Below, in pieces: positions 755-27,959 of a DNA stretch of 27,959 nt (positions within the stretch are counted from its first letter, which is position 1; each line of letters starts with the position of its first letter). The notes under the pieces were generated by a model that was not told where the DNA came from, did no database searches, and saw nothing but the letters and a program-made list of their open reading frames with translations. The stretch is taken from positions 1 through 27,959 of IMG/VR virus record IMGVR_UViG_3300025280_000128. One strand, given 5' to 3'. Position numbers and translations under genes: made by a program. The stretch is from a virus.

Positions 755-758
755 TTGA

Positions 759-2545: not shown

Positions 2546-2554
2546 GGTGACGGC

Positions 2555-7318: not shown

Positions 7319-7568
7319 GAGCACCACACCGTTCACGGTGGCTGTGGAATGGATGTTGCAGCGCCGCGCTCTCAACGCAGAGATTATAGTACGCATGGGG
7401 AAAGCGAAGAAGGCCCGAGGGTTTGATGCATTGCACAACGACCACACAATTCGATTCACCCTTGATGAGAACTATGTCGGTGACCCGAAGGAGGCATTGG
7501 ACATGATAGAGAAGTTGGTGGAGTGGGTAGACAAATGGAATCAGGTCGAAGTAGCAAAGCGGTACTGA
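7308..7568 (+). CDS. Small protein of unknown function
   Basis: An 86-residue protein from ATG 7308, which overlaps the nuclease stop by 11 bases and follows AAGGAGG. Upstream in-frame codons overlap the nuclease and have shadow-like composition, so the ATG is preferred. It starts TPFTVAVEWMLQRRALNAEIIVRMGKAKK and ends in a predicted amphipathic helix (EALDMIEKLVEWVDKW). No recognised domain. It overlaps the primase start by 34 bases. Confidence 0.55.
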   Translation: MTPESTTPFTVAVEWMLQRRALNAEIIVRMGKAKKARGFDALHNDHTIRFTLDENYVGDPKEALDMIEKLVEWVDKWNQVEVAKRY

Positions 7569-10323: not shown

Positions 10324-10327
10324 TACC

Positions 10328-11032: not shown

Positions 11033-11059
11033 TTGTATTAATTGTATCATCGGTTGTAT
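11033..11059 (+). repeat. Three short direct repeats TTGTAT
   Basis: Copies start at 11033, 11042 and 11054 (spacings of 9 and 12 bases), directly after the nuclease stop codon and upstream of the TATA-like sequence. They may be an operator or simply the effect of AT-rich composition. Confidence 0.35.
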
Positions 11060-11110
11060 TGGACATTAAATACCTTTGACAACCCATCATAATTACACGG
11101 AGAGAATATC
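11033..11110 (+). promoter_or_regulatory. AT-rich intergenic region with candidate archaeal promoter for the helicase gene
   Basis: This is the longest gap in the rightward module, about 31% GC. It contains an ATTAAATAC segment (11065-11073) that could serve as a TATA box, roughly 40 bases before the helicase ATG, and a CGGAGAG ribosome-binding sequence at 11098-11104. Three TTGTAT copies (11033-11038, 11042-11047, 11054-11059) lie upstream of the TATA-like site and could be a regulator site. The promoter call rests on position and composition only. Confidence 0.4.
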
Positions 11111-12547: not shown

Positions 12548-13206
12548 TGTCCGATGTTCTTGCTCTCGATATTGAGACCAGTAATTATTCCTACGAGATA
12601 GGTGGTTGGGACAAGACCCATCTGTTCAAGACCACAGTCGTTGCCACCCATGATGGCCATGACTCCACTGTGTTCTGCAACGAGGACATAGATGTGGACG
12701 CCACCGTTGAAGCACTCCACCCACGCATCCTCGGTGACCACATCCTCAACCATGTCGAGGCTGGTGGTGCATTGGTCGGCCACAACATACTACGGTTCGA
12801 CCTCCCTGTTCTTCGGGACTCGCTCGATTGCTTTGCCGCAGGTGAGATACTGCGTAGCCATCGTGACAATATACTGGATACCTCTCAACACCTGCGCAAG
12901 TCCACCGGACTGATTGGTGACTCGTTCTTTGTCACCCTCGACGATGTGTGCAAGCATACGCTCGGCCAAGGGAAGGGTGCGATGAAGAGCATTGACGCAC
13001 CAAAGGCATGGAATAATGGTCATCATTCTGAGGTCGCCAAGTACTGCTTGGAAGACACAAGGTTAAATTGGGGATTGTGGCAGCATGGGGTTGAGGAAGG
13101 AGTCGTGAAGTCCCGGTCGAGATGGACAGGGGACATAGTTGACTTGGAGGTTGATTGGGAATGGGAGAAGGGAGAGACACCACTACACAAAAGGCACAGC
13201 AGTTGA
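12547..13206 (+). CDS. DnaQ-like 3'-5' exonuclease (DEDD family)
   Basis: A 219-residue protein from ATG 12547, overlapping the helicase stop (TAATG). Motifs: Exo I LALDIET (D8, E10), Exo II GHNILRFD (N80, D85), Exo III YCLED (Y166, D170), i.e. DEDDy type. It therefore looks like a stand-alone proofreading or repair exonuclease, additional to the exonuclease domain of the polymerase. The C-terminal 40 residues are charged and have no motif. Its 3' end overlaps the chaperonin gene by 46 bases. Confidence 0.85.
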   Translation: MSDVLALDIETSNYSYEIGGWDKTHLFKTTVVATHDGHDSTVFCNEDIDVDATVEALHPRILGDHILNHVEAGGALVGHNILRFDLPVLRDSLDCFAAGEILRSHRDNILDTSQHLRKSTGLIGDSFFVTLDDVCKHTLGQGKGAMKSIDAPKAWNNGHHSEVAKYCLEDTRLNWGLWQHGVEEGVVKSRSRWTGDIVDLEVDWEWEKGETPLHKRHSS

Positions 13207-14669
13207 ACATAAAGGCAGCAATCGCGGTAGCGAATACTGTCCGTTCCACGCTTGGGCCATTGGGTATGGACAAGATGTGCGTAGACCCACGAGGACACTT
13301 CGTGGTGAGTAATGATGGAGCGACGATACTGCGTGAACTGGATGTAGCACATCCGGGTGCGCAGATGGTCGTGAACATGTCAAAGACACAGGAGGTTGAA
13401 TGTAGGGATGGCACAACGAGCGTGGTTGTCATTGCAGGTAAGTTGTTGGAGAACACCGAGGGGCTTCTGGTCAAGGGGATACACCCGAACACCATCTGCA
13501 ATGGATACCGGAAGGCTTCGCAACAGGCGCTGCGTCTGTTGGATGACCTGAAGTTGGACGAGGTGGACCTGAGGGCAGTCGCCACAACAGCAGTAACCGG
13601 AAAGGCCGCAGAGCAGAACATCGAACATGTGGCAGAACTGTGTGTCAATGCCATTGAACTCACCAAGGGAGACGAGTCACGCATCAAGGTCATCAGTCAG
13701 GTTGGTGGGTCATTGGATGACTCACACCTGTTCGACGGCGTGATTCTCAACAAGGAGTTCGGCTCGACCGCCAACCCCACAGACCTGCGTGGCGGGGTGC
13801 TGCTGGTCAACACAGGTCTAACACCCCCACCCATGCATGACTCGATGCGTGTGCAACTGGGGTCGATGGATGCGGTGCAGCAGTTCCAGATTGCTGAGAC
13901 TCGTATGCTTGTAGAGCGCGCCCAGTCAATCATCAGCCTTGGTGTGGTATCCGTGTTCGTGCGGGACAATGTGCATGAGGCGGTCATCCACACACTGGCA
14001 CAGGAGGGAATCGGCATCGTGACACGAGTGCCAACCACCGACCTACAGGCAATCAGCCATCTAACCGGCTCACCCATCTATCACATGACCGAGGATGCGA
14101 ACCCCGACTCGCTCGGTGATGCGTCGGTGGTGGAGAAGGAGATAGGTGACATTCGATTCGTCACCATCGAGGTCGACAAACCCGATGTCGTCACTCTCGT
14201 CCTGCGTGGTGCCACGCGACAGACGGTGGATGAGTTGGAGCGGGCATTCGATGATGCCATAGGAGTCTCATCATTAGCCTACCGTGACCAGATGGTGGTT
14301 GCCGGTGGCGGCAGTGCGTTCTCATACATCAGCCACCACATCAATACCGACATCGAGGATGGTAGAATCCGCCTTGCTGTTGAGGCGTATGCCGAATCAT
14401 TGCTTTCCATACCGATAACGATTGCCGAGAACGCGGGACACAACCCCCTCGATATAGCAATCAAGGTCGAGGCCTGTGAACTGGCACACTACGCACCCGA
14501 CATTGAGTCCGGTGACATGGTTGACATGTCGTTGGAAGGTGTCATAGAACCGTACCGTGTGGTGCGACAGGCCATACAGTCGGCAACCGAGGTCGCCATT
14601 GCTATCCTACGCATAGATGACATCATCGGACGGCGGGGAGACGAGGAGCAGAATGGGCAAACTGCTTGA
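13161..14669 (+). CDS. Group II chaperonin (thermosome subunit)
   Basis: A 502-residue protein from ATG 13161, ten bases after GGAGG; the gene begins inside the exonuclease gene. Hallmarks: TVRSTLGPLGMDKM (about 26-39), SNDGATIL (50-57), DGTTSVVV (83-90), ENAGHNPLDIAIKVE near the C-terminus and a final RIDDIIGRRG. The apical domain and helical lid region are present. It is somewhat shorter than cellular thermosome subunits (about 540-550), mainly at the N-terminus, and the usual GDGTT motif begins with Arg (RDGTT); the ATPase-type Asp in FDDAI is kept. It would fold proteins inside a ring chamber with ATP, possibly virion proteins. Magroviruses are known to carry thermosome genes, which supports the virus assignment. 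Confidence 0.95.
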   Translation: MGEGRDTTTQKAQQLNIKAAIAVANTVRSTLGPLGMDKMCVDPRGHFVVSNDGATILRELDVAHPGAQMVVNMSKTQEVECRDGTTSVVVIAGKLLENTEGLLVKGIHPNTICNGYRKASQQALRLLDDLKLDEVDLRAVATTAVTGKAAEQNIEHVAELCVNAIELTKGDESRIKVISQVGGSLDDSHLFDGVILNKEFGSTANPTDLRGGVLLVNTGLTPPPMHDSMRVQLGSMDAVQQFQIAETRMLVERAQSIISLGVVSVFVRDNVHEAVIHTLAQEGIGIVTRVPTTDLQAISHLTGSPIYHMTEDANPDSLGDASVVEKEIGDIRFVTIEVDKPDVVTLVLRGATRQTVDELERAFDDAIGVSSLAYRDQMVVAGGGSAFSYISHHINTDIEDGRIRLAVEAYAESLLSIPITIAENAGHNPLDIAIKVEACELAHYAPDIESGDMVDMSLEGVIEPYRVVRQAIQSATEVAIAILRIDDIIGRRGDEEQNGQTA

Positions 14670-14823
14670 GGCACTGAAGCAGGAATGCGAGGTGTGCGGG
14701 GAGCGGGTGTTCGCTATACGCATCATCGGCAAGTACATTCGCACCCTCAACCGCATCCTGATATGGGAATGCCCCGAGTGTCATCACCTGTGGCAGAACC
14801 CGCAGCGTGATGAACTAGATTAG
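14653..14823 (+). CDS. 56-residue zinc-ribbon protein
   Basis: ATG at 14653 overlaps the thermosome 3' end by 17 bases and follows AGGAG. C12-x2-C15 and C40-x2-C43 (CEVC and CPEC) form a four-cysteine zinc ribbon around a basic, beta-rich middle (FAIRIIGKYIRTLNRILIW). It is the last gene of the rightward module, ending 9 bases before the stop codon of the opposite-strand gene. Zinc ribbons of this size bind nucleic acid or transcription proteins; the partner is unknown. Confidence 0.65.
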   Translation: MGKLLEALKQECEVCGERVFAIRIIGKYIRTLNRILIWECPECHHLWQNPQRDELD

Positions 14824-14832
14824 TTGATGCCA

Positions 14833-16185
14833 TCAGACATAGGATAGACGATACCATGTCTGTCCATCGAACACATACTGTGCGGTCTTGCCTGCTTCAA
14901 TAATCTGATTCGATATACCAGTGCCATTGAATCGAATGTTGTCATGCGAACCATTTGTATTCTGAATCCATATCATGTGACCCTCAGGGAACTCACCGTC
15001 TGGTGTGTAATCAAGTGTATGTGTAGTACCAGATGGTGCTGTAGTACAATCAGTGATGAATACTTGGTCGCCGTATGATGTGAACTTCCATACCTTGTTG
15101 CCACTTGTAGTCAGTTGAAACTTGTCTACTCCTTTTGAACCCAACCTAACAGTGGTCATTGCCCCACCTGCCGCCAATGATTGTTTTGCATTGCCCTGAC
15201 CTGAATAGTACAACACATCAGTGGGTGTCTGTGCATCAGCATAGGTGGCCGTAGTCGAGTCGTATCCGCCCTGTGGTCCCAAACCAAAGTCAGGACCAGA
15301 TGATGGGGGAGTGGGGTTAGTGGCATCGTTAATCGACGCCTTCCAGTTCTGATGACTGACCCATATAGCAGACACATCAATCCTGTTTGAACTGGTGGTG
15401 CCGCCGAAGTCGCCCTGTTCATCATGACCTGCACCATACTCCAAGTTCTTCAACTGAACATCGTTGTTGACACCTGTGTTGTATGCGCGCACTACGGTGG
15501 ATGCACCCGCAGTAGTAGATGATGTGGTGAGTGGAGTCATGTACTGTGGGGTGGTGTGCAAAAACACTCGCTTGTCATTGACCTCAACTATGTCGATAAG
15601 GTCACCACCCCCACCCGATGGGTTGTGGATGGCCCGTACGACCGCCAGAACGGTCGTCTGGGCATTCTTCTCGGTCACTCCGGTGATGGGGTCGGTCAGG
15701 AATCCGTCTGGCACAGGAGGGAACACGCCTGTTGATGTGGTAGTGGGTGTTCCACCAAGCACCCTGACACGGCTGTTGCTGACGGATGCATTGGAGTTCC
15801 CCACGAGGTAGATGACATACACCACCTCCTCACCAGATGCCAGCGCAGTGCTCGTCACATAGTTCTGAGCGTTCTCCAGTGTGAGGGTGATGTTGCTCCC
15901 CGGTCCACCTGCGAACTGGTACAGTGCGCCATCCAACACACAGAACCCACCATGAACCCTCAAGGTGTACGCAGACAACCGCTCACAATGGCCCGGTGCG
16001 TTGGTCATCACCTCGTTCCGGTTGGCTTGGTCCCTCGCACCATCCTGTAGGCGTAGGATACCGTTGCCATGAATGCCCTCCACTAGGTTGGTGAGTGACG
16101 GAGATGTAATCACATCACCATCTCGTAGTCCATCCACCCCTAGGGTGATGTTCGCTGCTGTGTGACCGGACTTGGGGTTGACCAT
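14833..16185 (-). CDS. Tail-fibre or tip-like virion protein
   Basis: A 450-residue protein, last gene of the leftward module. The N-terminus (SGHTAANITLGVDGLRDGD, then about 60-200) is a regular beta-rich domain with NPSGGGGDLIDIVEV. The middle is Gly/Ser/Thr-rich. The C-terminal 60 residues (GHMIWIQNTNGSHDN to FDGQTWYRLSYV) read like the closing strand series of phage fibre or receptor-tip proteins, which often end in a Trp-Tyr segment. GC falls from about 60% in the N-terminal coding part to about 43% near the C-terminus, as expected if the tip has been exchanged. No enzyme motif is visible. GAGGTGAG precedes the ATG at 16185. Function is inferred from composition and position. Confidence 0.6.
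   Translation of the reverse strand: MVNPKSGHTAANITLGVDGLRDGDVITSPSLTNLVEGIHGNGILRLQDGARDQANRNEVMTNAPGHCERLSAYTLRVHGGFCVLDGALYQFAGGPGSNITLTLENAQNYVTSTALASGEEVVYVIYLVGNSNASVSNSRVRVLGGTPTTTSTGVFPPVPDGFLTDPITGVTEKNAQTTVLAVVRAIHNPSGGGGDLIDIVEVNDKRVFLHTTPQYMTPLTTSSTTAGASTVVRAYNTGVNNDVQLKNLEYGAGHDEQGDFGGTTSSNRIDVSAIWVSHQNWKASINDATNPTPPSSGPDFGLGPQGGYDSTTATYADAQTPTDVLYYSGQGNAKQSLAAGGAMTTVRLGSKGVDKFQLTTSGNKVWKFTSYGDQVFITDCTTAPSGTTHTLDYTPDGEFPEGHMIWIQNTNGSHDNIRFNGTGISNQIIEAGKTAQYVFDGQTWYRLSYV
14834..14862. repeat. Inverted repeat at the convergent module junction
   Basis: Perfect 7-base arms CAGACAT (14834-14840) and ATGTCTG (14856-14862) with a 15-base loop, just past the end of the rightward genes and inside the last codons of the leftward fibre-like gene. 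It could form an RNA hairpin on both transcripts, but no T-run follows, so a terminator role is weakly supported. Confidence 0.3.
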
Positions 16186-16536
16186 CTAACTCACCTCGAT
16201 AAGGAATGAAAAGTGTAATTCGTTCTGCGTGTTCTTGGTGATTGCCCTGATGTCGGTGCGGTATATGGGGATGAACTCATCAGTGGATGCGTCCTTGTGC
16301 TGCAACACGACCTCCTGTACATCACTCTTGGGGAAGTCATAGGTCGTTCCGAACCTGCCCTCCACGAGGATTGTCTGGTCATCCAACACCCTGACCGTGG
16401 GAACGATTCGTGCCAACGCCCTCGCTCCTCCATCATCTGCGCTCGCCTGTGTGCCATCACTACCGATGACCAGTTCATTAATTTTCGCTGCTAGTTGGTC
16501 TACTAAAAACCGTCTAGCGTGGTTCAATACTGGCAT
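16186..16536 (-). CDS. Small virion-type protein of unknown function
   Basis: A 116-residue protein. A short N-terminal helix (ARRFLVDQLAAKINELVIG) is followed by a beta sandwich-like pattern (TVRVLDDQTILVEGRFGTTYDF, SDVQEVVLQHKD, FIPIYRTDIRAI, LHFSFLIEV). This shape is typical of small phage tail or baseplate proteins. ATG overlaps the upstream stop (TAATG), and an AGGAGG sequence lies about 9 bases before it. It sits directly before the fibre-like gene, which suggests an attachment or connector role; no family is recognised. Confidence 0.55.
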   Translation of the reverse strand: MPVLNHARRFLVDQLAAKINELVIGSDGTQASADDGGARALARIVPTVRVLDDQTILVEGRFGTTYDFPKSDVQEVVLQHKDASTDEFIPIYRTDIRAITKNTQNELHFSFLIEVS

Positions 16537-16979
16537 TATTTTTTCCCTCCTAAAAACACCAATTGTTCTGGTGGTATAATCTGTTTTGTTCTTGATTCAC
16601 TATCTTGTTTTATCTTCGCAGGGTGTGATGTATCTAGTGGTTCCCCACGAATACCCCACATATCTGAACCAAATGCCTGAGCAAAATCTTCACTAGGGGT
16701 GAATGATACAGTCGGGTCATGTTCCGCTACCATCTTCTCCCACTCTTCATCTGAGATATGGTATTGTGGGTCAGGGTGGTCATCAAGTTGTCTAAACCAA
16801 TCTTCATTATTCGCATATTCATTCTGTGGAACAAGACCTTGTTGATGAATCAATGGTCTGACTTTTTCATGTGAACCATGATAATACTTCACAGGTTGTT
16901 TATCTGGATAATCCTCAATCCAATTGTATAATTTGGTTTGGCGTTTCAACACTACCCAAGCAACATCAATTGGTTTCAT
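16536..16979 (-). CDS. ADP-ribosyltransferase-like protein with N-terminal tag
   Basis: A 147-residue protein. It begins MKPIDVAWVVLKR, the third member of the shared N-terminal tag. Residues 31-36 KYYHGS, 89-104 including VSFTPSEDFAQAFG and 134-141 IIPPEQLV follow the layout of ADP-ribosyltransferases and KptA-type RNA phosphotransferases: an H-G-[ST] motif for NAD, a middle strand with Ala-containing helix, and a final I-x-P-E segment (E138). Viral enzymes of this fold can modify host proteins or DNA. The gene is AT-rich (about 35-40% GC) unlike its surroundings. AGGAGG precedes the ATG at 16979, which overlaps the previous stop (ATGA). The fold call is moderate; activity is not shown. Confidence 0.55.
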   Translation of the reverse strand: MKPIDVAWVVLKRQTKLYNWIEDYPDKQPVKYYHGSHEKVRPLIHQQGLVPQNEYANNEDWFRQLDDHPDPQYHISDEEWEKMVAEHDPTVSFTPSEDFAQAFGSDMWGIRGEPLDTSHPAKIKQDSESRTKQIIPPEQLVFLGGKK

Positions 16980-17896
16980 TCATCAATCCTCCTCGCTATC
17001 ATTTCTGGAATCTGTTGTGTTATTCTTTTGTTAGCCCCAAGCATTCCTTGTCTAGGTGTCTTTGTTTCTATATCAAAATCATCTTGGTATAGTTCTAGCA
17101 TTTCTGGTGTAGCATAATTTGATACTACCACAGGGCCGGGGTGTGCTAACGCTGCATCCCGCACAGCCGTTTGTAGTTCATCTCCAAATCCACCTTGTCC
17201 ATATTGCCCTTGTCTCTTAGGGTATGGTGGGTCAATATATCCAAAAGAATTACGACCAAGACCTCGCATAACATCACGGAAATCTCGGTTGTCTATTTTC
17301 CATCTATGCATTGGTCGTTTGTATGATGTTAAATCAAAGGCTCTCTCTAAGTTTGGACTACCATGACCACCAGATGACATTAGCCTTCCTTGCTTGTTAT
17401 GTTCCATCAATCCACTGTGTCCTCTTCTGTTAAGTGCAAAGTATAATTGAGCCGCTTCTACTGAATGAGGGTCAGTCATTTGTAGATGGTTATATCTATC
17501 TTTCAATTGCTTATAGTTATCCTTTGTATTAGGACCAAAGTTAGGGATAGTTAAACCTCGTTTCAAATGTCTTTGGAAATTAACAAGAGGAGAACTAGTA
17601 TCATTCCACGAACCATGCTTTGGATTTACACCCATAATTGCTGCACCAGAGCCACCAAACACATCATGGAACGAGTGTGTATCTCGGAATGGCTCATATA
17701 ATTCTCTCAACTGAGGCACTAACCATCCTTTACCACCATAATAGTTTAATGGTGTTGGTAGTCCTGCAATGCTGCGAGGTTTGAATCCCTCCATAGCGGC
17801 TAGACCACGCGTAGGATGAGAATGATGGGTAACAGGGAATGTTGGTTGCCCCGCTACTGCCTTCAACACAGCCCACGCTGCTTCCATCGGCATCAC
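16976..17896 (-). CDS. Dam-like DNA adenine N6-methyltransferase (D12 class) with N-terminal tag
   Basis: A 306-residue protein from GTG 17896 (ATG at 17893 is the alternative). Motifs in alpha-class order: YYGGKGW (52-58), DVFGGSGAA with F80-G84 for SAM, ND at 98-99, and catalytic YIDPPYP (D222-Y225). Enzymes of this class usually methylate adenine in short sites such as GATC; the site here is unknown. Residues 1-13 are the shared tag (MMPMEAAWAVLKA). GC falls abruptly near base 17760, at about residue 46, from about 57% to about 38%, just before the catalytic domain, so the domain looks imported behind an older leader. It lies among virion genes rather than with the replication genes. The beta-class enzyme at 8662-10323 is unrelated. 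Confidence 0.9.
   Translation of the reverse strand: MMPMEAAWAVLKAVAGQPTFPVTHHSHPTRGLAAMEGFKPRSIAGLPTPLNYYGGKGWLVPQLRELYEPFRDTHSFHDVFGGSGAAIMGVNPKHGSWNDTSSPLVNFQRHLKRGLTIPNFGPNTKDNYKQLKDRYNHLQMTDPHSVEAAQLYFALNRRGHSGLMEHNKQGRLMSSGGHGSPNLERAFDLTSYKRPMHRWKIDNRDFRDVMRGLGRNSFGYIDPPYPKRQGQYGQGGFGDELQTAVRDAALAHPGPVVVSNYATPEMLELYQDDFDIETKTPRQGMLGANKRITQQIPEMIARRIDE
17873..17895 (-). repeat. 23-bp direct repeat, copy A (start of Dam-like gene)
   Basis: Exact match to 18247-18269. On the minus strand it covers the TGA of the preceding gene and the codons for MPMEAAW of the Dam-like gene. It encodes the shared N-terminal tag. Confidence 0.9.
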
Positions 17897-18270
17897 TGTT
17901 CACCGCTCTCCCAATACCTACCTGCTCTCAAATCATCGTCTATCATAGTCGGATTGAAAAGGTCGTGCCACCACTGCTGTGATAATTGGTCGTTTTCCTC
18001 CCCGTATGCCTCATGTCGTGCGAACGCTCCTCCCAAACGCTCGGTCTCGTTGTTGGTTCCATAGTGAGCATCCTTGAGTTGCCCGAGAGCCGTGACTGTG
18101 GTTTTCATCCTCTCCCATAAAGGGGCAATTTCCTCCCATGTGTAACGCGTGTCTTCCACGGCCTCCAAAGCCCGCACTGCGAGGTCGGCCTCCTTCGCCG
18201 CCGCCAAATACTCATCGTTATGGAAGGCGCGTCCCTTCAACACGCGCCACGCTGCTTCCATCGGCATCAT
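17893..18270 (-). CDS. Helical protein of unknown function with N-terminal tag
   Basis: A 125-residue protein beginning MMPMEAAWRVLKG at ATG 18270; a second ATG at 18267 overlaps the previous stop. The rest is mostly charged alpha helix (AAAKEADLAVRALEAVEDTRY, EEIAPLWERMKTTVTALGQL) with a Trp-rich C-terminal part (SQQWWHDLF). No family is recognised. AAGGAAGGTG precedes the start. GC is about 55%, like the core virion genes. It is the first of three tagged genes in a row and may represent the native member of the cassette. Confidence 0.6.
   Translation of the reverse strand: MMPMEAAWRVLKGRAFHNDEYLAAAKEADLAVRALEAVEDTRYTWEEIAPLWERMKTTVTALGQLKDAHYGTNNETERLGGAFARHEAYGEENDQLSQQWWHDLFNPTMIDDDLRAGRYWESGEQ
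18247..18269 (-). repeat. 23-bp direct repeat, copy B (start of helical tagged gene)
   Basis: Exact match to 17873-17895, covering the TGA of the baseplate-hub-like gene and the MPMEAAW codons of the helical protein. A recombination between A and B would delete or exchange exactly one gene. Confidence 0.9.
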
Positions 18271-20096
18271 TTTGTCAGCACCTTCCTTCTAGAGCGGCAT
18301 ACCCTCGTCTCGTGTGAGCGGGGGCGAGCATAGATTACCCTTGCGTCATTCGTCCATGTTTTATCAGCGCCAAACGAGGTCACGATATGGAATGTCGTGC
18401 TAGTGATGGCGTCATATGCTGCTGAGTATGCTAGGCTGTCATCTTGTGCAACAATCATTATCGTACCAGTTGCAGGGAATCCGTCAGTAGATGCCACAGT
18501 CAACAGTTTGGTCGCATGGATGTACTGTGCTGACCCACTACCAGCAATCTTGGTGGACAATGACGCACCTACACCAATGGCACCACGCGCTGCCTTAGTC
18601 ATGTCTGTCGTACCGATGGCAGAAGTGATGTTGCCTTGCGAGTACCTATGACCGATGATGAACCCTGCGTGTTTGTCGGGCGTGGCGTTGTTCACTGTCT
18701 TGATGTCATCGCTGTGGTTCCGGGCTAACGCCCCGACGAGGGTGAAGGTGCTGACGGATGGGATGACGAACAGACCGATGCTTCCGGTGTTGCTGTTCTG
18801 TAGTGTGCGGATTTGCTGCGTCAGGTCTGGTTCGGTCAGGTCGTTCTGCAACTCACCCCTACCTGTGAATCCGGTGAGCATTCTCTCGATACCAGTCTCA
18901 AAGGTGGTGAAGTCGAGGTCGGTGGTGTGGTCACGCAGGGAGTGGGTCGCCTCCAACACCGCCACATACCGCTGTGAGCCAGTGGACGGGGCCTTGTAGT
19001 GGACGACATCGCCGGGGCCGATGTCCCATGAGTTGATGTGACCCTTGCTTCGCAGCACATTCTGTGCCTTACGGTTCATGCGGAGGTACTCACCGGCCAC
19101 CCTACGAGCAGCCGTCTCAGTTCGTACCACAGGGTCTAATATCTCCATCGTCTTGATTGAACCTTGCTTCTTCTGTAGTTCTCCATCATCCACCACCACC
19201 ACTATATCATCATTGTTGGCTCGTTGTTTGCCCAGAATCTTCAGACGGTTGGCGAGCCCCACCAATGGTTCGCTTTGAACAGAGTTGACCCCTGTGGTTT
19301 CCCCGAGTGTCCGGTCGGTCAACAGGAACACTGATGGAGCATAGAGGAGGTTTCCAAATCGGTCGTAGAACATGGTGTGTCCATCATGACGACCTACGAA
19401 TCGCAGTGCTGATATGAGATTAACGCCTTGGAAGTTGGCGGACAGGAACCTCGTCGAGTGTCGCACGAGGTCTGCGCCCTTGTAGTTTGTACTAGTCGCA
19501 CCCCCACGAGGCCCGGTGAATGACAACCCGATGTCAACCGAGTTCAATGAGTGTGGGACTCCGATGAACAGTTGTTGAATCAGGTCTGTGGTGCGTAGAC
19601 CTATATCCACTGTTTGACCTAGCCTCACAGTCTTTTCAGTGAACTCGATGCCCTCAAGGGTTCGACCCCTCATGTTCTGCAGTGTCAACCTTGACCCGTA
19701 GGTGGCGGTATGCACCTCCTTGGGCCGCAGTCGTTGCTCAGTACTCTCCTCCTCTGCGAACAACAACAGCGGGGGGGCGCTTGAGGATGATGACAACTTG
19801 TTCCCATCGAAGTAGATGGCCCCGGTGTATCGTGAGCCATCACGCGTAGGGTGTGTGAGGCGCAGACCGTCCTGCTCCTCTATGAGGCTGTATGTTCGGT
19901 CGTGTGCATACTGGAAGTCCGTTCCCAACGGTGGTGTGACCTTGAGTATGGTTCCCTTGGTGTTGCTTCGCTCACGCGTGTATTCAGCATGGAGAACGGT
20001 GTTGTCCACGAATGCAGGGACACGAATAACTGATGTCACCTCGTTGAATATGGTGTCCTGTCGGCCCTTCGGTGGGAATGCCTGTGTTGATGCCAT
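18267..20096 (-). CDS. Baseplate hub or tail-spike-like protein
   Basis: A 609-residue protein from ATG 20096, overlapping the stop of the giant gene (TGATG). Residues about 290-400 follow the pattern of phage late-control/baseplate hub proteins (Mu gp44, P2 gpD type): LANRLKILGKQ, then DPVVRTETAARRVAGEYLRMNRKAQNVL, IGPGDVVHYKAP and RYVAVLEATHSLRDHTTDLDF. Such proteins form the hub at the tail tip. The C-terminal region (about 530-590) holds a small beta module (LLTVASTDGFPATGTIMIV) found as an insertion in tail proteins, followed by a basic tail (RVCRSRRKVLTK). This supports a tailed virion. The hub call rests on pattern only. Confidence 0.6.
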   Translation of the reverse strand: MASTQAFPPKGRQDTIFNEVTSVIRVPAFVDNTVLHAEYTRERSNTKGTILKVTPPLGTDFQYAHDRTYSLIEEQDGLRLTHPTRDGSRYTGAIYFDGNKLSSSSSAPPLLLFAEEESTEQRLRPKEVHTATYGSRLTLQNMRGRTLEGIEFTEKTVRLGQTVDIGLRTTDLIQQLFIGVPHSLNSVDIGLSFTGPRGGATSTNYKGADLVRHSTRFLSANFQGVNLISALRFVGRHDGHTMFYDRFGNLLYAPSVFLLTDRTLGETTGVNSVQSEPLVGLANRLKILGKQRANNDDIVVVVDDGELQKKQGSIKTMEILDPVVRTETAARRVAGEYLRMNRKAQNVLRSKGHINSWDIGPGDVVHYKAPSTGSQRYVAVLEATHSLRDHTTDLDFTTFETGIERMLTGFTGRGELQNDLTEPDLTQQIRTLQNSNTGSIGLFVIPSVSTFTLVGALARNHSDDIKTVNNATPDKHAGFIIGHRYSQGNITSAIGTTDMTKAARGAIGVGASLSTKIAGSGSAQYIHATKLLTVASTDGFPATGTIMIVAQDDSLAYSAAYDAITSTTFHIVTSFGADKTWTNDARVIYARPRSHETRVCRSRRKVLTK

Positions 20097-23000
20097 CAGT
20101 AGTCCACCGTCCTGAGGCTCCCAGTGCCTGTAGCATAGTAATCATCTGGTGTATCGTCATCATGGTCTGCCGTATTGAAGTCGGTTGTCGCATCTTCACC
20201 CTTCGGGTGTAGCGTCTGACTGTGCCTTGGCTCCACCGTGTAGTCATACCTCACCGTCACATCACCATCATCGTCCTCGGTGCCTTGGCGTCGTGATGCG
20301 TCGGAACGGTAGTGCTGCAGTGTGTTCTCGCTGATGATGAGACGAGCAACGGCATCTGCCAGTGTTGGTGTCGTTCCATCTACACCTGCCCCACGAATAT
20401 ATGGGCCATGAGACTTGTTGCTACTGAAAGAAGTACCCCCTTTGTGGTCTGGGATGTACGATGCTACATATGGCCCACTGGTTGGTGATGGGTTTGTTGT
20501 CTGGACATATCTCCCACTGGTCACTGCCCGAGCATTGGGCATATCATAGTTGAACAGCCCATATCGACAACCCCCTGTCATCTTAAAGAATGTTGCATGG
20601 CTAGATGATTGGGGTCCCTTCAATGTTGCTGGGCCTCGTGGCCTGAACAATGCTATATGGCGACTGTCAAGTGTCATGCACACTCGGAGTAGGAATCGGA
20701 TTGTCTTGTCTGTGGCATTCGTCCTTCGTCGCATTGGGTCATTCACACCGGCTGTGGCATTCCCTTGATATGGGTTCGATGTTGGCCCGAAGGTGCTTAG
20801 TACATACGCAGCATTGGCTGTGTCTATGCCCCAGTTGTAGTCATTGAATGGCTCCACATGGCTAGACACCTCCATGATGTAGTTGCCTCCCATCGGAGAT
20901 ACACCATGAGCGTTGTTGAATCGTAGCACACCACCCTCACCATCGGCCCACACATCAGTACCCGCTGTCTTAGACATGTCAAGGTGGGTTATCCCTGCAC
21001 CGATAGTCCCTACTCCTGATGAACTGTACAGGTCAATAGTTTCAAACGAACCTTGGAATATGTACCGTTGCCCTACTTCACGGTCTGTGTGTAGGCTGGT
21101 TGCCTGTGTTGCCTGAACAATGTAGTTTCGTGGGTCATTGTCACTGGCCTCGGTGACGGTCATGGAATCCAACCCGATGCGTGGTGACAAGCGAGATACG
21201 GGGTCATAGAACGATAATCCCTCTGCTCCAAACACCCCAGATATCTGTTCGACATTCGCTCCGACCATGCCCTCGGGCTTCAACAGCCCATCGGTGTCTG
21301 ATATGCCAAGACGACCACTGATTCCACGAGGCACCTCGTAGTCCTGTAGCGCATCGTTGCGTGGTCGCAACAGGCCGGTGGTGAATGGAGGTTCTGCAGT
21401 GTGATATGACATCACCATACCTATTGGGTTCATAGTGGTGTCCACATCCTGCAGTATGTACTCGTTGAAGAACACCGGGTATCTGGAGCCTCGCCCATCA
21501 CCTCGGTCACCAACACGAACACTGTCAATCGGGTTGAAGAAGTCTGCTAGTTTGGTGTAGTAACTACTGACCGCATCGAAGACGGCGTTGTTGGATTCAT
21601 TGCGATTGCCTTGTTGCACAGACGGTGGCTGCACTGTGTCTGGATGCATGAAGAACAGTGATGTGGCAGGTAGTGGGAATGGTAGGACATACCTCCATGC
21701 CTCCGGGTCGAATGCCGGTCGCACTCCGAACCCACGCACAGGGAATCGGCGGACATCCTCACCTGTGGTGTTGCCCCACCAGTCGACCACATAGTACATG
21801 TTTGCCTTCACGAGGTCTTCGATGCTCTTGCCTATATGGTCGCCGGGGAACAGCCGCCTTGACTTGTCATCGTTTCGTAGGACTCGGATGGGGCAACCGA
21901 ACGGTCTGGTCATGCGACGACCATCGCTATACCTGACCTGCCAAGTGGGGAGGTCATGGCTGAGCAACGCAGATGCATTCGTCTGTCTCTCAATGATGCC
22001 TGTTATCGTCCCATTCGCAAGGGTCGCTGTGTCATTGTTTGGCGTGACTGCACGACTTGTCCAAGTACCACTCTCCGCTTGAACGAATGGCCCGTTGAAG
22101 TATGCGTAGTGACCATTGCTATGTGAGCCTGATGCTGCATCTGCAACGCTCTTGATTGCGATAGCCCACTTGGGTCGATTGTATGGCTGACGCACCGAGA
22201 ACCGATAGCCAAAGCAGTAGTTCCGCGTCCAAGGAACACCGTCGTTCGGTGTGGTTGGGAAGTTGGCCCATGCTGCAGTCACCGTCTGGTCTGTTCGTAT
22301 CTCCATTGGGTCTAGTGCCGGTCCAGCATTATACTGGGCCGTGTACGCTATGCATGACCCAGAGAATGGGTCGGCTACATTCCAGCCTCGCTCGACATCA
22401 CCCCACATGTCCAACCGTGATGCACTGGCTCCGTATCGTGTCCCTCCGGGCCAGAACCCACCATAGAAGAACTTGGCACCTGATGGCATCACCGTTGGCG
22501 CTATGGGTGCGACTGAGTCGGGGTCCTCTGGCGCATTGGTAAGTGATGGTTGGATGAGATTTAGCACCGCACCAGATATGACCTTGGCCTCAAATGTGGT
22601 AAGGACACTAGTCCCACCACTAGTTGCAGTCAACCTGTTGGTGCCATATGTAATGGTGAATGTCACAGTGCCGGGAGCAGTGTATGCCCTCGCACCACCA
22701 CACTCAAGATAGAACCCATCAAATGTCCCACCATCTGCTCCAAAGTTGTTCACATGACCTCCTGTTAGTGTCGCACGATGGTTGGCATTATCCCATGCAC
22801 CTGTCGATGTACCACTTACAGACCTGTGGGACATTCCCTTCATGCCAAGTGCGAATGGGCCGTTGCTGATGGCATACGAGAACTCGTGGTAGTGAACCAT
22901 CTCAAACGATTCGGGCATGATGTTGTACGGCTTCTTGTTGACTGGTGGGTATGCATCATTCCGACCTCTGGCGTGTGACCCATCGGATAACTTGGTGTAT

Positions 23001-26000
23001 GGGCGACCCAGATTGTGATGCCACATGCACAGGTATGCATCGGCCATGTGAAGGCTGTTGGTGTCTCTGGTGCCGGACAACAACTGTGGTAGTGTGCGTG
23101 GTAGTGGGCTGATGGTCTGGTCAGTGTAATTATCGCCCGGTGAGAAGTTGTTGTGCGCGCCCATCAACCGGAGGGTACCCCCATTGTAGAGGCTGTGACT
23201 ACTGGTCAATACATTCCATATGGGGGAGGATGCACCTAGCCCATCTGCCGGGGTGAATACGAGGAACCTGTCTGTATCCCCAGTGGATGCCCCACTGGTC
23301 CCACGAGCCGTGTATGTTGCAAAGTGCTCTGTGCCAGCGGAATCAATCGTGACAACCTTGCGCCCGTATGTCGCACCGTTCAATGGGAACAGAGCGTTGT
23401 CATCAACAGACAGGGTGACACTAGCGGCGGCAGTGGGGTTGGCTACAACCTTACATCGTGGGTTGAGGCTCTGCAGTTCACGAGTGTATGGTTCATAGAA
23501 GTGAGTGGGATAACCGGCGAGTGTGATTTGGGCGCTGATGGCACCAAGTGTGGAGCGATTGAACAGATAGTAGTCATCCACGCCGAACAAGGTGAGACCA
23601 GAATAGTTGCCAGTCTGCACACCGATGGCCCACCAAGGGATGGTCAAGGTGTACCCCGGTGTGGCTCGCTTGAACGCGGTAGGATGATATGGCAGCGAAC
23701 GACGAGTGAAGGGAGGACTCATCGTCTCGTTCACACCCAACGGATTGAAGTTCGCCAATGGTGGTAGTGAGGTGAATTGCTGACCCGGTGCAGGGTCGAT
23801 GTCCAGCATGACTTCATTGATGTAGATTTCACATCCTCTCACATCAGCGGATACGGTGTCTGCTAGGATTAGACTGCTACCACCATAGGTGGCCCAGTCA
23901 TGTACGACACCGACAACAGTTGCCACCTGTTGGCCAGTAAGGTTCAATTCAAGGTCTGCCTCAAAAGCACCATCTGCTGCATTACGAGGCGAGGTTGTGT
24001 CGCCAAACGGTGTGTTCTCATGGAATCCAGTGATTTGCTGGCTGAAAATGTTGGGTTGGATAATGATTTGGTATGCCCCCACCTCTAATGGGTCAGGGAA
24101 GTGAGAGGTCTGGGTGTGTTGGTTGGCTGCCTCCAATATGATGACATGGCCACCCTTGCTGTTCACCACCCCTGCTACACCAGAAGAGGCGAGGATGCCA
24201 TACCCGTCGAACCGAACCTTGGTCTCAGTCATCAGTGTGAATGCCCCACCGTGGATGTCAGATGGTGCATAGTTCGGTGTCAGGTTGGAGAACCAGATGT
24301 TGGGGTCCATAGTTGGGAGGGCGTTCGCATTACCGCTGTTCTCATCTATATTGCTATCAAGCGATGCGTAGGCTGAACCAGCACAGGCTAGGTGGTCACG
24401 GTATAGACCTTGATACAATGGGTGTGCCAAGTGACCCGGCATCATGGCCATTGTCGCATTCACATAGTGGTGACCCATGCGTGGAATGGGCATGGGCGTC
24501 AACTTGGGTGCAGTGATGAGGGTGTAGGGATTGTCAGAAGTACCGGCATTCAACTTGTGCCATTCGATGCGTGGCATGTCTGGGCTGTCACCGCTTATCT
24601 CAGCATGGTCACGCAGTCGACGGGCAGCAAACAGGCGGGTGGTTCCTGCAGGTGTGTAGTAAGATGGATGGATGGTAGCGTCATCAAATGTAGAATCCCA
24701 CCCCGGCCCGAACACAACACCAGTGAACTTGGTGGAGCCAGTGGTGATGCCCGTATAGGATGCGATGGCTACCTTGCCCGCTGAGTTGGTGGCCACCAAG
24801 AACCATCGCCCTGTCCCATCATTGAGTTGTTCATCTAGATTACCAAATACTGGGCCTGATGTAAGACCACTCACAGTCGCATAGTGTACTGTTCCATCAT
24901 ACACAAGTTCGACGCCAGTGAACACAGTCTGATTGACGGTGATGTTGTCACGCACCACGAGGTTGGTTGCACTGCCACCTACAGGTGTCCGATGCAGGAA
25001 CTCAACTGAGCCAACATCCTCACGCTTGCTGTAGGATATGTCCATCTTGGTGATGTGAAAGTAGAGAGTGCGGTCATGGGGTTCGTATGCCGTCTGTAGT
25101 GGTGCATCGTTTGTGGCACCGTCCCAACCAGTCTGGAATGAATCTGGGAAGTCATGCGAGGTGCCAATCTCCTTTGAGTCTGCTGAGTTATTGCTCGGTC
25201 CCACTGAAATCTGTTCCCAATTATTGTTTTCCCAAGTCGGCCATGTAGCCACATCTGGGCCACTGCCATCGAATGCCTTGGATACGAATGAGGTTGGTTG
25301 GCCGGGATGCTGAAGCCCACCAGTGCCGATTGACTCATTCTGGTATGCCTGTAGGCGGTCGAACCCGGAGCGCACCACGATGTTGCCGGGGATGGTGTTT
25401 GGGTCTGGCAACTGGATGCGCATGTTCGGACTGTTGCCTGACCCTCCAAGGGCAGGTGCTAGGCCTTCGGTTGACCTGTCAGATATCTCCTTGAAGTCAC
25501 GAATGATGCTTCCGAACGGGGAGCCACCCTCGATGGTGTGTTCTTGCCCTGTGTCATCAATGACAACCATGCTTTCAAACTGGATGTCCTCGTTGGGGAT
25601 GATGAGTGCGTTCCTGACTAGATGAGGGAATCGCTCAGCCAGTTGTGGGTGTGCCAGTTCCTGTGCTTGGATGACAGGGAACATGGCGCTGTTGGTCGTC
25701 TCAAACGAGAACCGACAGTTGCCATAGGTTGTCTCACCAGTCTTGTAGTAGTTGGTGGTGCCGCTTTGCTTGCGCCATGTCCAAGGTACTGCTCCAAGAC
25801 CTCGGGCGTTGGGTGCAGGTAGTGATAGGTTGCCACCATCCATGCGCTTCCAGACTATGTGGTTCACGCCGAAGTTCAATGATGATGTTTTTCCGGTGTT
25901 GCTAAGGGGGTCATGCCAATATCGGTGTGGCTCATTGTCAGCATCGAATATGCCGGGGAATGCTGAGCCATCTCGTATCCCACCCAACCCATTCGTGTCT

Positions 26001-27959
26001 TGATATAGGGCATTGGCCATACCCAACCATTCCTTGGATGTGAACAGGTCACCAGTCTGGGCCGCACAGTTGTCTGCAAGTGCGTTGTCGGCACCGTCAT
26101 TGTTCACAGCCCCCCACTTCATATTGGTCCTCTTGGTGTTGTTAGTGGTGGGGTTGTCCATCCCGGCTACGACCTGTGCCTCCACATATGGCCCACCATT
26201 GGCTGGACACCAGTATCTACTTGGATTGTGGATGTCATTACTCCATGCAGTCGTGCGAAGGAGGCTCTCTGCTCGCGGTAGTACGGCTGTGTTATTGGTG
26301 TCAGCAAAGCCGGGTGGTGTCATTGAACTACCTCCGGGTGCTGTATCCCATATCCCACTCAAGAAGTCACCACACCCACTTTGTCCCAACCTGTCAGCGC
26401 GGGCAATCAACGGTAGTTCTCCTTCATGGCTGATGACGACAAAGTGATGTTCATGGGTTCCCTTCGTCTTGTTCATGTTGTTCATCCATCCAGAACCGTA
26501 CTGTACTGCTGCTGCTGCTGCTGCTGTGGTACTGTACTGACCGATGTAGTTGGAATAGTGACAGTTCAACCCGCTTCCATATGGTGAGAATGACAGGAAT
26601 GGATGCCATGCGCCCAAACCTCGACTGATGCCCCAGTATCCCTTCTCCACTATACCCAGTGAGTTGAGCATTGAGTATCGCTCCCCATGCCATCCAATGG
26701 CACCAATGGGTCGTGTCCGGTCTATCGCATCGGTCAGGCCATTGAAGTGTACATGAGTCCCTGCCAATGCATCCCACACATACTTCTGTGTGGTGGACAA
26801 TGATGAGTCTCCAACAGAGAACAATTGGGATAACTGATTGGATATACCACCATTGTCCCATCGGTGGTTGCCAGTCTTTGTCCAGATGTGCATGACAGGA
26901 GCCTTGTCGCCCGCAGCATCTGGTGTCACAACATGGCAAGCAGGTTCCAGATATATGTGACCCGGATAGGTGCTTCCCGGCCCAGATATGGTTCGCTTTG
27001 TGGCATCCACAGTTGGGTCTTCTACGATACGCATACCAGTTCGATAGTTTCGACCGATGAAGATGGAACGATTTGCTCCAGTTGCTTTTACTCCGGTGTC
27101 ATCACTACGAGCGACACCACGATAGAACCCATAAAATCCTCGGTCATTCATACTAGCGACTGTATCAAGACTCGTATCGGCTCCGACATACCGTTGGACC
27201 GCTCCAGCAGTATCTAGGAAGAACCTCGCCCAACCTACATAGGGTAGTGATGGTGGCATGTAGTAGGTCGACCCGCTGATGCTCAGACTCATTCCAGCAT
27301 CGCGGGCGGGGTCTTCAAAATGAGTACTTACTGCACCAACATGTGTCAAGTGGTCAGCACGACCGTTCAATGAGCCTGTACCAGCGAGAGTCTCCATCGG
27401 TAGTTGGACCCAAGAGTAGCGGTCCTGCTTGTGTGCGTGTTGGAATGATGGTAGGAATGTGCCACCTAATGCCTTGAGCGCTCCTGAACCCGGCCACTCG
27501 TTGATTGCACATGAGATGACTGCACCTAGTTCCTCTGAGTTCTGCACACGCGTTGCGTCGATGATGATTACATCGCGGTCTACATCTCCCTCGACACCAC
27601 CTGAGTAGTTGTCCTGAGCGTATCCCCAATCTGCAACCAGACGGCGTAGCATGGGCGCACCGACTCGGAACATGGCAGCATTGTCACCGACACGGTATGC
27701 AGCATTGAATGCAAACCCAGTACCATTCATGTCCGTCGATTGTCGCCACGGATACGAGTACACGCCGAAGTTGTTTGGGTTGCGTACGACTCGGTCATCG
27801 AAGAAGTGACCGCCCGGTGCATGTCCACCATCCATGTGCCATGAAATGTCTGCAGCGGTAGCATCTGCGTGTAGGTTGGAGAAGTCAAGGACTGGGCCGG
27901 CTGTAGGTGCGCCACCAGTTGCTGGGGTGGCATGACTAGCACCCACGATGGACTGCGAT
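20096..27959 (-). CDS. Giant virion protein, 5' end cut by window edge (probable tail or fibre protein)
   Basis: The frame is open from the stop at 20096 to the right edge. A GTG at 27946 would give 2,616 residues, but the frame continues upstream, so the start lies outside. Composition is rich in Gly, Asn, Thr, Tyr, Trp and His, with no coiled coils or membrane segments, which argues against a tape-measure protein and for a beta-rich surface protein. A short Ala run is encoded by a CTG repeat (26506-26526). A beta module (VTLSVDDNALFPLNGATYG, about 23300-23430) resembles that of the hub-like protein, and a related one lies at about 24850-24970. It is the first of the leftward genes seen and is probably a large host-contact or tail shaft protein; no named family is recognised. 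Confidence 0.7.
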   Translation of the reverse strand, partial: SQSIVGASHATPATGGAPTAGPVLDFSNLHADATAADISWHMDGGHAPGGHFFDDRVVRNPNNFGVYSYPWRQSTDMNGTGFAFNAAYRVGDNAAMFRVGAPMLRRLVADWGYAQDNYSGGVEGDVDRDVIIIDATRVQNSEELGAVISCAINEWPGSGALKALGGTFLPSFQHAHKQDRYSWVQLPMETLAGTGSLNGRADHLTHVGAVSTHFEDPARDAGMSLSISGSTYYMPPSLPYVGWARFFLDTAGAVQRYVGADTSLDTVASMNDRGFYGFYRGVARSDDTGVKATGANRSIFIGRNYRTGMRIVEDPTVDATKRTISGPGSTYPGHIYLEPACHVVTPDAAGDKAPVMHIWTKTGNHRWDNGGISNQLSQLFSVGDSSLSTTQKYVWDALAGTHVHFNGLTDAIDRTRPIGAIGWHGERYSMLNSLGIVEKGYWGISRGLGAWHPFLSFSPYGSGLNCHYSNYIGQYSTTAAAAAAVQYGSGWMNNMNKTKGTHEHHFVVISHEGELPLIARADRLGQSGCGDFLSGIWDTAPGGSSMTPPGFADTNNTAVLPRAESLLRTTAWSNDIHNPSRYWCPANGGPYVEAQVVAGMDNPTTNNTKRTNMKWGAVNNDGADNALADNCAAQTGDLFTSKEWLGMANALYQDTNGLGGIRDGSAFPGIFDADNEPHRYWHDPLSNTGKTSSLNFGVNHIVWKRMDGGNLSLPAPNARGLGAVPWTWRKQSGTTNYYKTGETTYGNCRFSFETTNSAMFPVIQAQELAHPQLAERFPHLVRNALIIPNEDIQFESMVVIDDTGQEHTIEGGSPFGSIIRDFKEISDRSTEGLAPALGGSGNSPNMRIQLPDPNTIPGNIVVRSGFDRLQAYQNESIGTGGLQHPGQPTSFVSKAFDGSGPDVATWPTWENNNWEQISVGPSNNSADSKEIGTSHDFPDSFQTGWDGATNDAPLQTAYEPHDRTLYFHITKMDISYSKREDVGSVEFLHRTPVGGSATNLVVRDNITVNQTVFTGVELVYDGTVHYATVSGLTSGPVFGNLDEQLNDGTGRWFLVATNSAGKVAIASYTGITTGSTKFTGVVFGPGWDSTFDDATIHPSYYTPAGTTRLFAARRLRDHAEISGDSPDMPRIEWHKLNAGTSDNPYTLITAPKLTPMPIPRMGHHYVNATMAMMPGHLAHPLYQGLYRDHLACAGSAYASLDSNIDENSGNANALPTMDPNIWFSNLTPNYAPSDIHGGAFTLMTETKVRFDGYGILASSGVAGVVNSKGGHVIILEAANQHTQTSHFPDPLEVGAYQIIIQPNIFSQQITGFHENTPFGDTTSPRNAADGAFEADLELNLTGQQVATVVGVVHDWATYGGSSLILADTVSADVRGCEIYINEVMLDIDPAPGQQFTSLPPLANFNPLGVNETMSPPFTRRSLPYHPTAFKRATPGYTLTIPWWAIGVQTGNYSGLTLFGVDDYYLFNRSTLGAISAQITLAGYPTHFYEPYTRELQSLNPRCKVVANPTAAASVTLSVDDNALFPLNGATYGRKVVTIDSAGTEHFATYTARGTSGASTGDTDRFLVFTPADGLGASSPIWNVLTSSHSLYNGGTLRLMGAHNNFSPGDNYTDQTISPLPRTLPQLLSGTRDTNSLHMADAYLCMWHHNLGRPYTKLSDGSHARGRNDAYPPVNKKPYNIMPESFEMVHYHEFSYAISNGPFALGMKGMSHRSVSGTSTGAWDNANHRATLTGGHVNNFGADGGTFDGFYLECGGARAYTAPGTVTFTITYGTNRLTATSGGTSVLTTFEAKVISGAVLNLIQPSLTNAPEDPDSVAPIAPTVMPSGAKFFYGGFWPGGTRYGASASRLDMWGDVERGWNVADPFSGSCIAYTAQYNAGPALDPMEIRTDQTVTAAWANFPTTPNDGVPWTRNYCFGYRFSVRQPYNRPKWAIAIKSVADAASGSHSNGHYAYFNGPFVQAESGTWTSRAVTPNNDTATLANGTITGIIERQTNASALLSHDLPTWQVRYSDGRRMTRPFGCPIRVLRNDDKSRRLFPGDHIGKSIEDLVKANMYYVVDWWGNTTGEDVRRFPVRGFGVRPAFDPEAWRYVLPFPLPATSLFFMHPDTVQPPSVQQGNRNESNNAVFDAVSSYYTKLADFFNPIDSVRVGDRGDGRGSRYPVFFNEYILQDVDTTMNPIGMVMSYHTAEPPFTTGLLRPRNDALQDYEVPRGISGRLGISDTDGLLKPEGMVGANVEQISGVFGAEGLSFYDPVSRLSPRIGLDSMTVTEASDNDPRNYIVQATQATSLHTDREVGQRYIFQGSFETIDLYSSSGVGTIGAGITHLDMSKTAGTDVWADGEGGVLRFNNAHGVSPMGGNYIMEVSSHVEPFNDYNWGIDTANAAYVLSTFGPTSNPYQGNATAGVNDPMRRRTNATDKTIRFLLRVCMTLDSRHIALFRPRGPATLKGPQSSSHATFFKMTGGCRYGLFNYDMPNARAVTSGRYVQTTNPSPTSGPYVASYIPDHKGGTSFSSNKSHGPYIRGAGVDGTTPTLADAVARLIISENTLQHYRSDASRRQGTEDDDGDVTVRYDYTVEPRHSQTLHPKGEDATTDFNTADHDDDTPDDYYATGTGSLRTVDY
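26498..26539 (+). repeat. (CTG)7 microsatellite flanked by 11-bp direct repeats
   Basis: Seven CTG units (26506-26526) encode a run of Ala on the minus strand. GTACTGTACTG flanks it at 26498-26508 and 26529-26539. It lies in frame in the giant gene, so unit gain or loss would change length without breaking the frame. Confidence 0.75.

Follow-up and report, generated by a model that had tools for sequence, protein, structure and literature searches.

Background

Encapsulins use a short cargo-loading peptide to dock unrelated cargo inside an HK97-fold shell. Among viruses, a few bacterial phages (T4, P1) are known to load proteins into the virion by means of peptides. The internal proteins of T-even phages form a highly diverse defence set in which only the capsid-targeting sequence (CTS) is conserved (PMC3012670). 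The CTS of T4 is N-terminal, spans 10-20 residues and is removed by the prohead protease, and in SPN3US/phiKZ the N-terminal parts of ejection proteins have been proposed to target inner head proteins (both PMC5694885). In P1, the N-terminal 30 residues of DarB suffice to send a reporter to the capsid (PMC9024508). Here we report on a stretch of 27,959 nucleotides of viral DNA (IMG/VR record IMGVR_UViG_3300025280_000128, hereafter the window), in which three consecutive genes share one peptide tag at the start of otherwise unrelated proteins. The tag is an instance of a short motif found on many proteins of related viruses, and it probably serves to load these proteins into the virion.

Results

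Three consecutive tagged genes

An initial annotation of the window had described three consecutive proteins with a common N-terminal peptide that diverge behind it. All three genes were found where it placed them, on the - strand, with a 4-base overlap at each junction. Their shared start is M-x-P-[MI]-[DE]-x-A-W-x-V-L-K, and they have no other sequence in common. The genes and their tags are:

18270-17893, - strand: tagged gene 1, 125 amino acids (aa), unknown protein; starts MMPMEAAWRVLKG
18235..18270, - strand: tag 1, MMPMEAAWRVLK
17896-16976, - strand: tagged gene 2, 306 aa, D12/Dam-type N6-adenine methyltransferase; starts [V/M]MPMEAAWAVLKA
17861..17896, - strand: tag 2, (V/M)MPMEAAWAVLK, GTG start
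16979-16536, - strand: tagged gene 3, 147 aa, ADP-ribosyltransferase-like protein (weak profile and fold evidence); starts MKPIDVAWVVLKR
16944..16979, - strand: tag 3, MKPIDVAWVVLK

Gene 1 gave no match in family profile searches; its only relative in viral contigs was the identical copy in an overlapping record (contig G004), and no relatives were found in phages. Gene 2, which starts with GTG at 17896 or ATG at 17893, had been called Dam-like, and by its match to MethyltransfD12 (PF02086; E = 2.7e-17, 63.8 bits against a curated cut-off of 22) it is a D12/Dam-type adenine methyltransferase. The methyltransferase part begins at about residue 44-52. A TIGR00571 dam match (6.5e-20) was obtained for one member of alignment A1, presumably gene 2.

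For the proposed likeness of gene 3 to ADP-ribosyltransferases, the evidence is weak. No family model matched at E<=0.1. A profile was built from 24 sequences, namely 23 of the 32 proteins in the single-linkage family of gene 3 (window copy included) and one other. It hit 35 PDB sequences, which represent about six kinds of protein, with weak E-values of 0.035-0.97, and all 35, judged by name, have the ADP-ribosyltransferase fold. The AlphaFold2 model is of modest quality (predicted local distance difference test score, pLDDT, 63) and has a predicted helix at residues 3-20, which includes the tag. In a Foldseek search with this model, the first 34 of the 50 PDB matches listed were tRNA 2'-phosphotransferases (Tpt1/KptA), DarT1 or PARP, again with weak scores (E >= 0.069); no match was found in phages. 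On this weak evidence, gene 3 is described here as ADP-ribosyltransferase-like.

One tag on many unrelated proteins

The initial annotation had proposed a search for the tag in other viruses. When the DNA of IMG/VR contigs was searched for M-x-P-[ILMV]-[DE]-x-A-W-x-x-L-K at a start codon, the pattern occurred in at least 118 stretches of viral contigs, with many different bodies behind the tag, and the reversed pattern gave 0 matches. Of 141 matches within these loci, two meet a stop within 30 codons (L029, L068) and nine stay open to the end of the stretch. A relaxed pattern was present in 50/50 tagged records, with 0 control matches.

Scanning start codons with a position-specific scoring matrix (PSSM) yielded 227 N-terminally tagged frames, 139 of them distinct. 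These 139 proteins fall into 65 families by single linkage of all sequence after residue 13. When 70 representatives are aligned, conservation is limited to the columns of the first dozen residues and one stray column. Family-weighted information drops from 4.5 bits at residue 12 to 1.1 at residue 13, and amounts to 0.13-0.34 over residues 14-26. Since the tags were picked by pattern or PSSM, conservation at residues 3-12 is partly imposed, and only the drop in information after residue 12 is unbiased. Full-length homology as the reason for the shared tag was ruled out by the 65 families together with the end of conservation after the tag.

Recognized bodies include the Dam-type methyltransferase, an HD_4/RelA-SpoT-type hydrolase, DUF6321, DUF5872 and possibly a GNAT acetyltransferase (8.7e-4). 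The largest family (32 members) includes the ADP-ribosyltransferase-like proteins. The DUF6321 protein is very basic (32 K+R vs 2 D+E in 105 aa), and the DUF5872 stretches have 27-31 K+R vs 6-7 D+E in 95 aa. Phage homologues were found in 627 records for the methyltransferase and in 420 records for the HD protein. Among the 15 methyltransferase rows listed, the alignment begins at residue 42-60 in 14 and at residue 12 in one. All four phage homologues inspected (three methyltransferases, one HD protein) are untagged, which, along with the number of families, excludes that the peptide occurs only in true homologues. In viral contigs, 12/12 relatives of the HD protein carry the motif or a close variant, a count biased by a search seeded partly with the tag end.

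A further short element, approximately H-P-[AS]-[IV]-[AQ]-G, recurs in tagged proteins of otherwise different sequence:

L003:2721-3377, L071:4354-5109, G041 22942-26220, G001 63183-65331: H-P-[AS]-[IV]-[AQ]-G element

Internal and C-terminal copies

Fifteen reference contigs, selected for being tagged, were used to examine whole proteins. A PSSM scan of all called proteins gave 132 places above 8 bits, and the reversed PSSM gave 2. By an approximate automatic label, 129 motif copies divide into 49 N-terminal, 66 internal and 14 C-terminal ones; gene calling was crude, and some of the internal copies are N-terminal tags with an over-extended start and a few low-scoring matches are due to chance. 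A single genome holds up to 17 copies, and a single protein up to five internal ones (829 aa, G022).

The form found away from N-termini, internally or C-terminally, is [GS]-E-P-M-[DE]-x-A-W-x-L-L-K. Among the matches listed, ...GEPMDIAWQLLKND and ...GEPMDLSFRLLKGEW stand at extreme C-termini. A DNA pattern of the internal form was found in 25 viral stretches, partly overlapping the earlier ones, with 27/27 copies in open frames. Sixteen of these stretches are independent of the reference contigs, and untagged genes of magrovirus-like kind occur in 15 of them. The motif precedes the domain 'YESSPERxKYREEL' in some contigs and follows it in others. Several multi-motif proteins are low in complexity or very basic, as judged by eye.

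These copies rule out a strictly N-terminal leader, as the initial annotation had understood the peptide. Position independence and repetition instead fit a short linear docking motif. With chance excluded as its origin by the reversed-pattern and reversed-PSSM controls, it is close to certain, on sequence grounds, that a shared, position-independent motif exists.

Some internal copies are preceded by a second conserved segment, approximately F-x-G-[IV]-P-F-N-E-E-T-[GY]-F-T-x. Where it precedes the motif, the element may span about 30 residues:

G038 19355-21001, G041 22942-26220, G020 48287-50095, G001 69136-70038: F-x-G-[IV]-P-F-N-E-E-T segment

Occurrence in viruses and cellular genomes

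Genomes of 84,980 prokaryote species contain three pattern matches, each inside a longer frame (410, 383 and 348 aa) that runs on the opposite strand or in a different reading frame. By this criterion the three are chance matches, and a peptide code of cellular genomes was thereby ruled out. No true tag copy was found in this set, whose inclusion of Poseidoniales is unconfirmed.

In viruses, 23 of the 118 loci share DNA with the 15 reference contigs, leaving 95 independent loci. Untagged genes homologous to those of the reference contigs are present in 93 of the 95, and the two exceptions are short; judged from these sequences, the motif is nearly confined to the magrovirus-like group described below. 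When records were sampled by capsid protein instead of by tag, the strict core was found in 23/43 records (those of 80 loci with contigs >=29 kb), and in 0 controls. At least six of the 43 (G001, G002, G022, G029, L223, L250) were already in the tag-sampled set. Six of the records without the strict pattern were examined, three of them in part: G084 and G079 carry islands of variant tags, and in G081 and G071 it is the terminase-adjacent protein that has the motif. The literature searched, which did not take in two key magrovirus papers, yielded no description of the motif.

The virus group

The window is contained in the 56-kb contig G004, in reversed orientation and 99.98% identical. It encodes a family B polymerase (DNA_pol_B, 2.4e-24, at 2707-5019), an ERCC4 nuclease (7.1e-12), a PD-(D/E)XK nuclease and a TCP-1/cpn60 chaperonin (Cpn60_TCP1, 1.2e-128). 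Gene directions are opposed, with 53-14823 on the + strand and the late genes, 14833-27946, on the - strand (chosen among mechanical open reading frames), and relatives are arranged alike. The polymerase, nucleases, chaperonin and late genes of G004 are also present in the 97-107 kb contigs G014, G021 and G022. G014 encodes a portal protein, terminase, S78 prohead protease and SU10-type capsid protein. The nearest named relatives of this capsid protein are in the haloarchaeal viruses HVTV-1, HCTV-1 and HCTV-5 (32-35% identity). Thus a Druskaviridae-related capsid protein is present in relatives of the window; no capsid gene was recognized in the window or in G004. Among the genes scanned, an HMGL-like match (1.5e-20) was obtained only in G014.

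In magroviruses, replication and morphogenesis modules are transcribed in opposite directions (PMC12999244; PMC10768690). A chaperonin and HMG-CoA lyase are reported for Aoguangviridae, which are magroviruses (order Magrovirales, tailed viruses of Poseidoniales). The opposed modules, the chaperonin and, in G014, the HMGL-like enzyme agree with these descriptions, and the group is therefore called magrovirus-like.

Two other genes were noted. A second DNA methylase (N6_N4_Mtase, 2.3e-38), untagged, lies in the replication module at 8557-10323 of the window. A giant protein has 5885 aa in G004 (3838-21492) and 5487 aa in G014, and its part in the window (20096-27946) is without a Pfam match.

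Genomic location of tagged genes

In the 15 contigs, 94/101 tagged genes share the strand of the structural genes. Tagged genes form two islands. One lies upstream of conserved genes leading into terminase, portal, protease and capsid; the other, to which the site in the window corresponds, has the giant protein and the YQBQ-like tail protein on one side and the last late gene on the other. There, the tagged genes are flanked by the YQBQ-like gene and two more same-strand genes:

18267..20096, - strand: YQBQ-like tail protein (PF24032, 4.1e-06, 0.2 bits under the cut-off; phrog_400 tail protein, 0.00056)
20096..27946, - strand: part of the giant protein, 2616 aa (5885 aa in G004)
16186..16536, - strand: 116-aa protein downstream of the tagged genes
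14833..16185, - strand: 450-aa protein, conserved, end of the late module

That the tagged genes are encoded with virion genes, as the initial annotation held, is borne out by the adjoining tail gene and by relatives placed beside head and tail modules. The protein just upstream of TerL was recognized in 15 contigs and carries one to three copies of the motif in 14 of them; in the fifteenth the contig ends within it.

A few well-scoring tagged genes on the opposite strand adjoin the head-side island. In five contigs, a tagged family with putative, unproven kinase-like motifs stands by itself within the replication region, though on the late strand; it had no PDB profile match, and its model has a pLDDT of 37. 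The corresponding genes are:

G041 21661-21972, G020 46962-47309, G038 28570-30450, G008 35981-37486: opposite-strand tagged genes
G014 18071-18865, G022 87332-88141, G002 16544-17353, G043 9655-10482, G011 13605-14432: members of the presumed kinase-like family

Tag DNA and turnover behind the tag

The GC content of gene 2 is 0.571 in the first 42 nucleotides (the tag), 0.548 in the next 93 and 0.406 in the remaining 786, and that of the virus is 53%. The simplest reading of this break behind the tag is that a foreign body was fused to a tag already in place. Gene 3, AT-rich over its whole length (GC 0.392), shows no such break.

Tags 1 and 2 are identical in 32/36 bases, and tag 3 shares 24/36 with each of them; the peptide is kept where the tag DNA differs. 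For non-homologous genes, mean tag DNA identity is 0.701 within loci (84 pairs) and 0.651 between loci (8,917 pairs), a difference reached by 0/500 permutations. Pairs at least 85% identical make up 10.7% within loci (9/84, at 86-94% identity) vs 1.2% between them, which points to tag copying in addition to any effect of codon usage. The suggestion that the shared peptide is a trace of gene duplication thus holds in part, as regards the tags.

Discussion

Proposed function

As read from the sequences, the motif is modular, independent of position, present in multiple copies, placed on the late strand beside head and tail modules, and followed by different bodies. We propose that it loads tagged proteins into the virion of these magrovirus-like viruses, a group of marine archaeal tailed viruses, in the manner of the T4 CTS, and consider this the probable explanation. 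The core P-[MI]-[DE]-x-A-W-x-x-L-[L]-K, a predicted helix, would act as a docking motif that brings a rapidly changing repertoire of proteins to a single viral partner late in infection. The helix side formed by A7, W8 and L11 would dock to a partner present in late assembly, most likely a component of the procapsid or virion assembly core, and the tagged proteins would end up inside the particle. There, the very basic ones would act as internal proteins, and the methyltransferase, the ADP-ribosyltransferase-like protein and the HD hydrolase would be delivered into the next host cell. The motif occurs in a head-module protein and not in the cellular genomes searched; this fits internal or injected proteins, as do the late-strand islands and the basic or enzymatic cargo. 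Binding, the receptor, the location in the virion (head or tail), injection and the functions of the cargo are what we infer from this pattern.

Several observations weigh against this proposal. Seven of the 101 tagged genes are on the opposite strand, and some lie outside both islands, such as the replication-region family in five contigs, on the late strand. In G021, G041 and G065, all of which have a terminase, the terminase-adjacent protein was not recognized by BLAST. Since the window has its tagged genes in the tail module, it does not by itself speak for the capsid rather than the tail. Most tagged bodies lack a family match, and most cargo families lack an assigned function. A common cleavage site downstream of the tag, which the T4 tag has, was looked for and not found. 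The hydrophobic moment of the tag is not exceptional (0.44 vs 0.28 in the control, with 16% of control windows reaching it). Shared codon usage may contribute to the similarity of tags within loci. The strict pattern is missing in 20/43 capsid-sampled records; no motif was found in G065, a whole 54-kb contig that has the tail-side site and lacks the head-side island, or in the first 20 kb of G061. The motif is therefore common, though perhaps not universal, in the group. Finally, no clear tag was seen in HVTV-1, of whose 102 kb 97 were scanned (31,278 residues, with the PSSM).

Alternative explanations

The main alternative is that the motif docks to a viral or host complex outside the virion, for example to the virus chaperonin for folding or to a host machine to which effectors would be recruited. 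Any docking site is compatible with position independence, the motif has helix-forming and hydrophobic features, and a homologue of the G014 chaperonin is present in 13/15 tagged contigs, the other two (G008, G020) having been examined only in part. A host ligand code is disfavoured by the lack of a true pattern copy in cellular genomes, with the reservation on Poseidoniales given above, and the low-complexity or very basic look of several multi-motif proteins also counts against this alternative. The clusters beside terminase, portal and capsid genes and the motif in the terminase-adjacent protein favour an assembly role over docking elsewhere, and we regard this alternative as unlikely, though the least so of the three considered here.

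It is less likely still that the S78-type prohead protease recognizes the motif or cuts at it, with multi-motif proteins as polyproteins cut into effectors. A Peptidase_S78 protein is indeed encoded next to the capsid gene, and [GS]-E precedes P in internal copies, so that cleavage there would give products starting like N-terminal tags. Proline after glutamate is unfavourable for cleavage, however, cutting at C-terminal copies would free a peptide of only about 14-16 residues, and N-tagged proteins have no common site after the tag. A protease signal is also compatible with docking and the two could act together, as T4 CTS peptides are both. The idea of a duplication or translation-start cassette, in which 5' sequence is copied for a good start region and the peptide has no function, draws on the near-identical tags of non-homologous genes within one locus, including tags 1 and 2. 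It is contradicted by internal and C-terminal copies, which are unrelated to translation start, and by conservation of the peptide despite DNA divergence (tag 3; between-locus mean 65%), and we give it very little weight.

Implications

A broader version of the virion-loading proposal is that one universal cargo code of 12 residues, independent of position, is in use throughout an order of archaeal tailed viruses. Every protein with one or more copies, terminal or internal, would then be loaded into the particle, the rapidly changing effector islands next to the head and tail modules would serve as a cargo manifest, and new cargo would arise by joining a foreign body to a resident tag. The window methyltransferase suggests this mode of cargo gain; we put the broader version forward tentatively, as slightly less probable than its negation. 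If virion loading is correct, this would be, by the literature searched, the first such code recognized in archaeal viruses, used by at least 65 families, at any position and in repeated form. Virion cargo among unknown ocean virus proteins could then be read from sequence alone, and every tagged protein would be a candidate internal or injected protein, making the question of what enters the cell testable. The tag could also be used to load chosen proteins into virus-like particles.

Comparison with known systems

By its capsid protein, the nearest isolate is HVTV-1 (Druskaviridae). The only place above 4 bits in its scanned proteins is LVDAAQSILK in gp115, which lacks P and W, scores 8.9 bits (above the 8-bit line) and stands in front of a linker repeated in gp115; the second copy of that repeat scores 3.1 bits. 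This place could be due to chance or a distant relative of the motif. The protein gp115 is annotated as a zeta toxin and has an ADP-ribosyltransferase-like stretch as judged by eye, and an ADP-ribosyltransferase is listed for HVTV-1 in PMC8651126. Genes 113, 115 and 116, located between portal and protease (L214, 55000-102319), have repeated linkers, VYVDSPDEAPEGVQVQ...; ..LKDWVSDPTEQAPNRWT..GEHRYQETKP. The linker sequences of gp113-gp116 are unlike the magrovirus motif, and the arrangement is possibly analogous.

Encapsulin cargo loading is alike by description, encapsulins being cellular compartments and not viruses. P1 DarB also has an N-terminal packaging signal; it is one protein, however, and not a motif across tens of families. 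The propeptides of SPN3US/phiKZ differ in that several exceed 100 residues and are cleaved, in contrast to a repeated 12-residue motif. A close parallel is the CTS of T4 internal proteins and Alt, where a short peptide is likewise common to otherwise diverse proteins (here 65 families). The likeness in logic to T4 internal proteins drawn by the initial annotation is therefore retained, for a short peptide on unrelated proteins, several of them likely enzymes. Unlike the T4 CTS, the magrovirus motif is also internal and C-terminal, is repeated, and has no common cleavage site behind it; an S78 prohead protease is encoded in the relative G014. Because the motif is not restricted to N-termini, we do not class it as a T4 CTS; the two are likened by logic.

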